A stretch of 64,000 nt of DNA from Candidatus Pelagibacter sp. IMCC9063 (GTDB taxonomy: Bacteria > Pseudomonadota > Alphaproteobacteria > Pelagibacterales > Pelagibacteraceae). The translations under genes were made by a program, and so were the position numbers. Under the pieces are notes generated by a model. That model saw only the letters and a list, made by a program, of their open reading frames with translations. It was not told the origin of the DNA and searched no databases. The DNA lies in the NCBI RefSeq assembly GCF_000195085.1, contig NC_015380.1:420001-484000 (forward strand). Direction: 5' to 3'. Each line of letters starts with the position of its first letter. Position 1 is the first letter of the stretch. This document shows, piece after piece, positions 51,632 to 54,809 of this stretch.

Positions 51632-52015
51632 TTACTTTTTAAATAAATTTTGAACTATTTCCTTTGCCCAATTTATATTTTGCATAACAATTTCTTTCAA
51701 GATATCTGCAGATTCAAAAAATCCAAGAAGGTTAGGATGTTTATTTAAAATTAGATCTCGATTAAATATCATTCCAATAAACAGAACTATTAAAAAAAGT
51801 ATAAGAATAAAGCCTATTGGTTTTTTACTTGGCTTTGTGGTTCTTTTAGATATTTTTTTTAAGTTTTTATCAGGTAATGGAAGATCAGTGTTGGCAACAA
51901 GTCCATTATGAGGCCATTCTTCACCACAAAAACTACATTTGAGAAGCTTACCGTATGGAATGATTTCATCATTTGGAATTTGAAATTTTTTCCCACATTT
52001 GCACTCAATGATCAT
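51632..52015 (-). CDS. zinc-ribbon (MJ0042-type) single-pass membrane protein
   Basis: A 127-residue protein. The N-terminal zinc ribbon (MIIECKCGKKFQIPND, LLKCSFCGEEW) resembles the MJ0042 family, and one transmembrane helix (FILILFLIVLFIGMIF) lies near residues 68-83, with a short C-terminal helix. This architecture is common in alphaproteobacteria, but the function is not known. Confidence 0.82.
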   Translation of the reverse strand: MIIECKCGKKFQIPNDEIIPYGKLLKCSFCGEEWPHNGLVANTDLPLPDKNLKKISKRTTKPSKKPIGFILILFLIVLFIGMIFNRDLILNKHPNLLGFFESADILKEIVMQNINWAKEIVQNLFKK

Positions 52016-52098: not shown

Positions 52099-52175
52099 GG
52101 TTTTAGTTCAGGGGTGCGAAAACGCTGAGATTATACCCTACGAACCTGATGTTTAATTACAACGAAGGGAGAACC
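52099..52175 (+). promoter_or_regulatory. TPP riboswitch (THI element)
   Basis: The conserved TPP aptamer is clear: CAGGGGTGC, CTGAGA, ACCCT, GAACCTGAT and the ACGAAGGGA 3' core. P1 can form between GGTTT (52099-52103) and GAACC (52171-52175), which ends on the base before the ATG. The GGGAG ribosome-binding site lies inside the aptamer. Binding of thiamine diphosphate should shut off translation of the transporter gene directly. Confidence 0.95.
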
Positions 52176-53654
52176 ATGGTTTTAAATATTTATACGTTCA
52201 TTTTAATTTTTTTATGTGGAGCATTTGCAATTGGAGGATTTTTTTTTTCCAAAAAAGAAAAGTCAGTTCCAGCCTATTTAAATGCTAGTCGTTCTATACG
52301 ATCACCATCTTTAACCGCATCTATTGTTGCTTCATGCTTTGGGGTTTGGATTTTAATAGGGCCTGCAGAGGCTGCAACATGGGGAGGCATTGGTGCTATA
52401 ACTGGTTACGCACTTGGCCAAGCCACTCCTTTTTTAGCAATGACTGTTTTTGGTAAAAGATTAAGGAAAATTATGCCGGAAGGTAACAGTTTAACTCAAT
52501 TTGTTTATGCTCGTTACGGTTCAAAAATGCTTAAGATAGTATTGGTTTTATCTCTTTTTTATGTATTTATTTATTTGTGTGCTGAAGTTACAGCAATTGC
52601 AAAAATTGTTAATTTAATTGCAGGAGTGGAGCTGTGGAAAACCTCTTTGCTCATTTTAATTTCAACCTTAATTTACACATTGAGAGGTGGATTAAAAATA
52701 TCAATTATTACTGATAAATTGCAATTTATTATTATTTCTATTTTTTTAATTTTAATTTTTTACTATCTGTTTATTTCTGGTGAAGTTAACATTTCATCTG
52801 AATTAATTAGCTTAAAAGCAGGAAACTTGATTGATCCTAAATACTTTTCTGGATATACGGCTGGAATAACTTTCTTCATTGCGGTGTTTGCAACAAACCT
52901 ATTTGATCAAGGTATCTGGCAGCGAGTATATGCTGCAAAGTCCGATCAAGATTTGCACAAGAGTTTTGTTAGTTCTTTTTTTATTGTTTTACCAGTTATC
53001 TTAATTTTAGGTTTTTGTGGAATTGTTGCAGTATCTTTAGGTCAAGCAAAGGATCCTAGTATAGTGATCTTTTCTTTGTTGCTTAAAAATGGAACCGTAT
53101 GGTTATCAATTTCTATTTTAGTTTTAGCGTTAACTTTAGTAATTAGCAGCATGGACACACTAATTAATGCAATTTCTAGTCTATTTATTATTGAGAGTAA
53201 AAAAATTATAAGATCTAAATCTAGCGATTTTTATCTTAGTATCTCTAAAATATTTTTGATATTAATTTCTTGTTTGGTCTTTATGATAGCCTCTCAAGGA
53301 ATGAGCGTTTTATATATGTTTTTGTTAGCAGACTTATTATGCTGCGCAGCAGCAATTCCTGTTTTTTATGGAATGTTTAAAAATGATATTAGTGGTTCAA
53401 ATTCAATGATTTGTGTTTGCGCTGGATTGATAGCTGGGCTGTTGTTATTTCCAGATCTGAGCTTTCAAAAAAGCATATTAGTCGGGGGGTTGTTTAATTT
53501 ACAATCTTTTCCAATATGGATTTCTTCATCTTTGTTATTTTGGTCTTTTGTATCAGCTACTCTTATTCCTTTATTTGTGATTGTAGTTTTAAGAAGTAAA
53601 AAACAAAAATTTCAATTTGAAAAAATTAAGGTATTAATTACTGAATTAAAGTAG
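52176..53654 (+). CDS. thiV: sodium:solute symporter family transporter, probable thiamine precursor (HMP) transporter
   Basis: A 492-residue integral membrane protein of the SSS family (about 13 helices; ASIVASCFGVWILIGPAEAATWGG, YTLRGGLKISIITDKLQF, and an ATNLFDQGIWQRVYAAK motif). The TPP riboswitch ending just before the ATG makes it a thiamine-related uptake gene; the SAR11 protein in this position (ThiV) has been linked to uptake of a pyrimidine precursor of thiamine. An upstream in-frame ATG at 52149 lies within the riboswitch and is not the start. Confidence 0.85.
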   Translation: MVLNIYTFILIFLCGAFAIGGFFFSKKEKSVPAYLNASRSIRSPSLTASIVASCFGVWILIGPAEAATWGGIGAITGYALGQATPFLAMTVFGKRLRKIMPEGNSLTQFVYARYGSKMLKIVLVLSLFYVFIYLCAEVTAIAKIVNLIAGVELWKTSLLILISTLIYTLRGGLKISIITDKLQFIIISIFLILIFYYLFISGEVNISSELISLKAGNLIDPKYFSGYTAGITFFIAVFATNLFDQGIWQRVYAAKSDQDLHKSFVSSFFIVLPVILILGFCGIVAVSLGQAKDPSIVIFSLLLKNGTVWLSISILVLALTLVISSMDTLINAISSLFIIESKKIIRSKSSDFYLSISKIFLILISCLVFMIASQGMSVLYMFLLADLLCCAAAIPVFYGMFKNDISGSNSMICVCAGLIAGLLLFPDLSFQKSILVGGLFNLQSFPIWISSSLLFWSFVSATLIPLFVIVVLRSKKQKFQFEKIKVLITELK

Positions 53655-53681
53655 TTTTGTTTATTTAGTAATTATTATTTT

Positions 53682-54434
53682 ATGGAATTAATCACATTTG
53701 ATTATCTCTTTTTTATATACCTAGGTATTTTTTTCTTAGGGGGTCTAGTTAAAGGTACCATAGGAGTTGGATTACCGACTGTTACTCTGACGCTATTGTC
53801 TTTTTTTTTTGACATAAAAGACTCAATTTCTTTTATTTTAATTCCCGTTATCTTGACCAACCTAGTCCAAATGCTAGATGGTAAGGAATTAAAATCTATT
53901 TTTCAGCAAACAAAATTTTTTTTATTTACTTCAGTTGCATTTGTCATCCCTGGTTTTTTGGTTCTAAGGGCTATTAATTCTAATACAATATTACTAATTC
54001 TAGCTAGTTTGCTTGTATTGAATTCTTGCTTAGTTTTATTTAATAAAATCATTACGATTAAGAGACACACTTCCTTTCAGACACAGTTTTGGATAGGAGC
54101 TCTAACTGGAATTACAACGGGTGTCACAAGTATATATACGATGCCATTTATTTTTTTAATTCAATCTCTTAAATTTAATAAAGAGAAATTAATCCAATTG
54201 ATGGGCTTGAGCTTCTTTTTATATTCTTTAACTCAATTTACTCTTTTTTATAGCTTTTCAATGATTAATGAAAAAGTCTTGTTATTTTCTTCTGTAGCTT
54301 GTGTGCCGATTATATTCGGAGTTATTAGTGGAAAATATTTAAGAAAAGTTTTAAGTGAACAAGCTTTTAAGCTACTATTTAATTATATGCTTCTTATAAG
54401 TGGAATCGTAATTATTATTAAAAGCAGTATTTAA
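53682..54434 (+). CDS. TauE/SafE (DUF81) family membrane transporter
   Basis: A 250-residue membrane protein with about eight hydrophobic segments in two halves, each with a glycine-rich motif (GGLVKGTIGVGLPTVTLTLL and WIGALTGITTGVTSIYTMP). Members export or import sulfonates, sulfoacetate, other organic anions or unknown solutes. It lies 27 bases after the ThiV-like gene with no terminator between, so it is probably in the TPP-regulated transcript. It abuts the EF-hand gene stop. Confidence 0.85.
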   Translation: MELITFDYLFFIYLGIFFLGGLVKGTIGVGLPTVTLTLLSFFFDIKDSISFILIPVILTNLVQMLDGKELKSIFQQTKFFLFTSVAFVIPGFLVLRAINSNTILLILASLLVLNSCLVLFNKIITIKRHTSFQTQFWIGALTGITTGVTSIYTMPFIFLIQSLKFNKEKLIQLMGLSFFLYSLTQFTLFYSFSMINEKVLLFSSVACVPIIFGVISGKYLRKVLSEQAFKLLFNYMLLISGIVIIIKSSI

Positions 54435-54809
54435 TTATTTTTTGGTTTTATTTTTATTGTAATAATTTTCTTGTTCTTTAGGAGTAACGGAGCCATCTTT
54501 ATTAACATCCATTTTTGTTAAAAGTTTTTTTTCTTCATCCTTTGAGATCTTTCCGTCTTTATTGATATCGGCTAGTATTGCGAGGTTCCTTCTCAGTAAT
54601 CGTGCTTTTTGCACCCTTTGAACATATGCCCTTTCTTCTGCAGGAGTCATCTTTCCATCCTTATTAGAATCAATTGCATTAAACTGCTGTTCTAATTTCT
54701 TAATATTGGAATCAATAAATTCTTTTTTAGTAATAGATTTTTTTTCAGCAGCTAATGACGCTGTTGAAGCGACTACAGATACAAATAGAATTAAAAATAT
54801 TTTTTTCAT
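54435..54809 (-). CDS. secreted EF-hand calcium-binding protein
   Basis: A 124-residue protein with a signal peptide (MKKIFLILFVSVVASTASLA) and three EF-hand loops: DSNKDGKMTPAEE, DINKDGKISKDEE and DVNKDGSVTPKEQ. Each has the Dx[DN]xDG calcium ligands. I take the ATG at 54809 rather than an upstream GTG because it gives the normal signal peptide. Its binding partner is unknown. Confidence 0.88.
   Translation of the reverse strand: MKKIFLILFVSVVASTASLAAEKKSITKKEFIDSNIKKLEQQFNAIDSNKDGKMTPAEERAYVQRVQKARLLRRNLAILADINKDGKISKDEEKKLLTKMDVNKDGSVTPKEQENYYNKNKTKK

Follow-up and report, generated by a model that had tools for sequence, protein, structure and literature searches.

thiV carries a minimal TPP aptamer fused to its start codon

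The window analyzed here is a 64,000-nucleotide stretch of the genome of Candidatus Pelagibacter sp. IMCC9063, which we take to be an isolate of SAR11 subclade IIIa. On its forward strand, a predicted TPP aptamer (52099-52175) is directly followed by thiV (52176-53654), which encodes a sodium:solute symporter of 492 aa and putative HMP transporter (PF00474, 68.7 bits), and by a gene encoding a 250-aa membrane protein of the TauE/SafE family (53682-54434; PF01925, 85.7 bits for a cut-off of 32.6). Two conserved neighbors on the reverse strand border this slot: a zinc-ribbon protein gene on the left (51632-52015; PF13717, E = 1.4e-6, below cut-off) and an EF-hand protein gene on the right (54435-54809; EF-hand Pfam matches).

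A covariance scan with Rfam matched the aptamer to RF00059 across all 105 model positions (52100-52187, forward strand, 52.7 bits, E = 1.3e-9). The gathering score of this model is 54.3, just above that of the window aptamer, which is therefore absent from the default Rfam table; the cut-off is passed in 16 of 147 family genomes, including by relatives found before ThiV. In the complete genome, a single contig of 1,284,727 bases, the aptamer is the sole credible TPP match, with the runner-up scoring 16.2 bits. A preliminary description of the locus had proposed a minimal aptamer fused to the start codon, with its ribosome-binding site inside the aptamer and no separate expression platform, and this anatomy is borne out. 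P1 is made of four pairs, GUUC (52106-52109) with GAAC (52171-52174), followed by C52175 and then by the ATG at 52176. The sequence GAACC, which had been described as the 3' strand of P1, thus ends right before the ATG, but its second C is unpaired, a mismatch in P1 of the Rfam alignment. The AGGGAG motif (52166-52171) spans two helices: its AGG belongs to the 3' strand of P4, while the 3' strand of P1 begins with its final G. We took 52176 as the ThiV start, since the ATG at 52149 chosen by the ORF caller sits within the aptamer and is replaced by CTG in the nearest relative, G012. The identification of the symporter also stands, as a SAR11 ThiV homolog located behind a TPP riboswitch.

Among 28 aligned SAR11 relatives, CUGAGA and other core positions are invariant, several two-sided changes in P3 keep the pairing, and in P1 one G-C pair is replaced by U-A; the P5 pairs are weak in the window's genus. 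Judging from its position, the AGGGAG of the aptamer core can double as a putative ribosome-binding site. Its role is nevertheless uncertain because few genes of the window have an SD-like motif (7 of 68 when a simple gene model is used, with ThiV starting at 52149).

The start-codon fusion is found across the SAR11 family

TPP matches were found in 122 of the 147 family genomes, one per genome and mostly before ThiV, relatives of which were detected in 108 genomes. At all 30 SAR11-family TPP loci that were read, an AUG lies 4-10 nt past the AGG core, and the first gene fused in this manner encodes ThiV, a porin, an SDR-type protein, or another ORF. In other Alphaproteobacteria, a rough screen of 126 measurable regions (14 of 140 could not be measured) found 39 in which a long frame has its ATG no more than 12 nt from the TPP element.

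A 2009 study described a TPP riboswitch before SAR11_0811 of Candidatus Pelagibacter and noted a tendency toward fewer nucleotides in the RNAs of this organism (PMC2704228), and the parts we consulted of a later study report the riboswitch upstream of thiV in SAR11 phylogroups, describe HMP uptake by HTCC7211 cells, and name ThiV as the likely candidate transporter (PMC11452348). The window shares with these reports the aptamer class, the gene, and the compact size, and shows no difference in kind. TPP-ThiV with a fused minimal aptamer is therefore already known and family-wide in SAR11; beyond those reports, the start-codon fusion is here read across 30 loci. This architecture corresponds to the direct translation attenuation class defined by Barrick and Breaker in 2007 (passages of PMC2258182), with which it shares a ribosome-binding sequence within the aptamer and the lack of an expression platform, and it is the form taken by all SAR11-family loci read here. 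In Pelagibacterales MAGs, thiV has been described together with tenA and a TDP riboswitch (passages of another study, PMC10881298). A similar order is found in one relative of the window (G023), while the window's own genome has tenA elsewhere (C1:388679); TauE and TorF are not mentioned in the thiV-tenA passages of that study.

Some relatives carry the aptamer in front of other genes. In G040 (L081:4396-5175, reverse strand) and G039 (L088:2176-2958, forward strand), the gene with the sole TPP aptamer at its start encodes an SDR-type oxidoreductase, which in G040 matches the PRK08642 equivalog with 356 bits, and no ThiV was found in either genome; here too the aptamer and the gene start are fused. 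In four genomes of another genus, g2 (L071, L072, L074, and L075), a start-fused TPP element precedes an ORF other than ThiV, which has 289 codons within the stretch read and looks NMT1-like by eye.

The downstream gene encodes a TauE/SafE-family protein

As stated in the preliminary description, a TauE/SafE-family gene starts 27 bases past the end of ThiV, and the PF01925 profile match spans nearly the whole protein. In taurine breakdown, sulfite export is usually partnered by Xsc. Among 28 genomes searched, some of them incomplete, xsc scored above cut-off in 1 of 16 TauE genomes versus 8 of the 12 others. The tie of TauE/SafE proteins to taurine dissimilation is thus not seen for the SAR11 TauE, and we rejected this role for lack of co-occurrence with xsc. 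Taurine was also reported, in the portion of the study consulted, to give no growth of a IIIa.3 isolate (PMC10030771).

A sequence search found no solved relative of TauE. We obtained an AlphaFold2 model with a mean pLDDT of 86.8, for which Foldseek returned no match at an E value of 0.001 or below. Of the 250 residues in the model, 232 can be superimposed on the undecaprenyl-diphosphate phosphatase BacA, with an rmsd of 4.6 and a Z of 10.7 (next unrelated match, Z 5.4); Foldseek scores the BacA match at E = 0.014. A second look with VIA-align listed no TauE-named chain, which excludes nothing. The model's likeness to BacA may reflect only a shared arrangement of helical proteins. We regard TauE as a transporter that is not tied to thiamine, and infer an anion or a sulfur-type solute as its substrate class.

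TauE occupies a conserved slot that contains TPP-thiV in one genus only

We then compared the slot across the family, labeling the window's genus g1 and its two sister genera g8 and g10 (labels are arbitrary; the window's genome is G000). TauE relatives are present in 16 of the 147 genomes: six in g1, two in g8, and eight in g10. In g8 and g10, all 11 TauE loci lie between the zinc-ribbon and EF-hand genes, with no TPP element or ThiV nearby, and they share further neighbors with the window, namely MFS and cytochrome c genes and, where the contig reaches them, kdsB, pheA, and dnaX. Eight of these 10 genomes have ThiV either on a separate contig or at a distance of about 137 kb, and no ThiV was found in the other two (G039 and G047). 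One genome, G059, has two TauE loci on two contigs (L094 and L095) encoding near-identical proteins; given 6% contamination, the second copy may have arisen in binning.

The TPP-ThiV cassette is located inside the TauE slot only in g1, in five of six genomes. The order is TPP-ThiV-TauE in G000 and G012, TPP-TorF-ThiV-TauE in G032, and TPP-TorF-ThiV-TenA-TauE in G023, while in G048 the contig starts at ThiV, followed by TauE, and any upstream TPP element would fall beyond the contig edge. TauE therefore adjoins ThiV in 4 of the 16 TauE genomes and is one gene away in another, all in g1, where 20-27 bases separate it from the preceding gene.

In the sixth g1 genome, G040, there is no ThiV match. 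The ∼366 bases that separate TauE from the zinc-ribbon gene hold a damaged 3' end of ThiV with an internal stop (L082:6427-6730; tblastn E = 6e-24 to G032), next to a TauE gene that is intact and constrained (dN 0.067 and dS 0.651 versus G032). This shows that TauE is retained where the local ThiV and riboswitch have been lost. A scan with lax Rfam settings found no TPP element near TauE at four loci (G040, two g10 loci, and L112), and recovered the known TPP element before ThiV in L119.

TauE sequences cluster by genus, as descent would give, in a tree of 19 rows with two long outgroup branches; L113 was left out of alignment A3. In the two g6 genomes where the slot was read, the zinc-ribbon gene and TauE are both absent, so TauE was either gained toward g1, g8, and g10 or lost in g6. 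Silent divergence differs between the adjacent genes of G000 and G012 (dS of 0.441 for ThiV and 0.082 for TauE; window positions 52176-54434 versus L077), a contrast that hints at recombination at the locus.

No TauE recognized behind TPP elements in 140 regions of other Alphaproteobacteria

The association was further examined in a wider set of 142 genomes of the class, where 140 of 142 non-SAR11 TPP places were covered up to 5 kb downstream; the last two places were left out, and several of the 140 regions were shortened by contig ends. Two screens were used, an HMM built from 17 SAR11 TauE rows and run against all forward-strand ORFs of at least 70 aa, and a Pfam search on 52 ORFs of 190-420 aa with at least five hydrophobic segments. 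No recognized TauE was found on the same strand in any of the 140 regions, and neither ThiV nor TorF was found downstream of these elements. In the literature, our search, which mostly did not extend to subscription papers, turned up no TauE or TorF described as controlled by TPP, and the parts consulted of one paper describe TauE with ykkC riboswitches.

The preliminary description had read TauE as a thiamine-controlled carrier of a thiamine-related or sulfur-containing compound. While its fused aptamer and its ThiV call hold, this inference does not: TauE is not conserved beside TPP-thiV outside g1, it persists beside a broken ThiV in G040, and its co-occurrence with the riboswitch does not extend beyond g1, either in the 140 regions of the class or in g8 and g10, where TauE comes without TPP. 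The case thus offers a check on annotation by guilt by association, since the neighbor of a riboswitch may be the resident and the regulated unit the newcomer.

A proposed TPP-controlled thiV unit in front of a probably older resident gene

We consider it probable that the locus combines a direct TPP switch on thiV translation with a TauE gene that held the slot earlier, has a function outside thiamine salvage, and later had the TPP-thiV unit placed in front of it in g1. TPP binding would close P1 and P4 over AGGGAG and the adjacent AUG, blocking initiation on the first gene, and the HMP symporter ThiV would be made when TPP is low. TauE would be the older occupant between the zinc-ribbon and EF-hand genes, before which the TPP-thiV unit would have moved in g1; it may be read from the thiV mRNA while its work, on an anion or sulfur-type solute, would be distinct from thiamine salvage. 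Three observations count against this reading, one of them being the scarcity of SD-like motifs noted above. The order kept in g1 and the 20-27-base gaps are as expected of an operon. The predicted minimum-energy fold of the unliganded leader differs from the aptamer (z = -0.50), and the Gs of AGGG are predicted to be paired in the unliganded ensemble as well, so that fold prediction does not support their opening in the free state.

A switch embedded in the first start codon would act on translation of the first gene alone, and reaching TauE would therefore require polarity or translational coupling. That thiV and TauE are co-transcribed is plausible, and it is quite possible, though we lean slightly against it, that TauE is indirectly lowered by TPP in this way with no functional link to thiamine. 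The 27-base gap, the lack of a visible promoter of its own, and the lack of an SD-like motif all speak for a shared transcript. Gaps of at most 30 bases are found in 35 of the 53 co-directional pairs of neighbors (among 67 pairs in the simple gene model of the window), and the ThiV-TauE gap is therefore what any neighbor shows; 61 of the 68 genes in the model have no SD-like motif either (60 if ThiV starts at 52176). No promoter-like site was found on the same strand within ∼900 bases upstream of TauE, but the scan performed at or below shuffle level and is uninformative, and hence compatible with a start inside ThiV. In g8 and g10, moreover, TauE must be expressed without a TPP leader. Such an indirect effect is an addition to the explanation favored here, not an alternative to it.

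The riboswitch could also act on transcription, through Rho or otherwise, and not on translation initiation, which we judge unlikely. With a porin gene first behind the aptamer in G023 and G032, ThiV comes second and its control requires some downstream effect, by coupling, polarity, or transcription, the same being true of TauE; in addition, the text consulted of one study words the control of thiV as a turning off of transcription (PMC11452348). Against this, an intrinsic terminator would not fit between P1 and a start codon one base further on, and the one terminator-like site found, ∼1.2 kb inside ThiV, is at or below shuffle level and thus uninformative.

We find it very doubtful that TauE is a working member of a TPP operon in g1, moving either a sulfur by-product or a thiamine precursor, such as the aminomethyl pyrimidine on which TenA acts. 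The order is kept in five of six g1 genomes, TenA sits between ThiV and TauE in G023, and transporters for AmMP and FAMP are named as unknown in the sections consulted of PMC10470507. TauE nevertheless sits away from TPP and ThiV in g8 and g10, does not co-distribute with tenA (present in four of six g1 and 1 of 10 g8/g10 TauE genomes), and outlives ThiV in G040, though that genome has tenA elsewhere. Least probable of all is a g1 salvage unit under one aptamer, at its fullest with TorF, ThiV, TenA, and TauE, into which TauE would have been recruited for an aminopyrimidine precursor or a sulfur by-product.

TorF-type porin genes lie close to TPP-ThiV in two SAR11 lineages

Searching the 147 family genomes for TorF-type porins (PF09694) gave 14 matches in 11 genomes, restricted to g1 and g6; for 11 of these matches, a TPP element is found no more than ∼1.7 kb away. 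In G023 and G032, the porin gene comes first behind the aptamer, while in g6 it is located directly upstream of TPP-ThiV in seven of the eight genomes that carry it; in the eighth (G064), it is on a different contig from ThiV. Putative TorF/Gcw_chp porin genes clustered with TPP-ThiV include L078:3670-4347, L079:3398-4069, and L119:2467-4050. The same search found no TorF in the window's own genome. This clustering in two SAR11 lineages is a better lead than TauE. The gene neighborhoods suggest that the pyrimidine precursor could cross the outer membrane through TorF, making this porin a candidate outer-membrane partner for thiamine-precursor uptake, for which the literature, in the parts consulted, discusses inner-membrane candidates only.

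Elsewhere in the window, the forward strand at 24787-25099 matches the Rickettsia sRNA47 family (RF02800, 65.8 bits for a cut-off of 60). In a SAR11 genome, this match may reflect shared coding sequence and not an sRNA.
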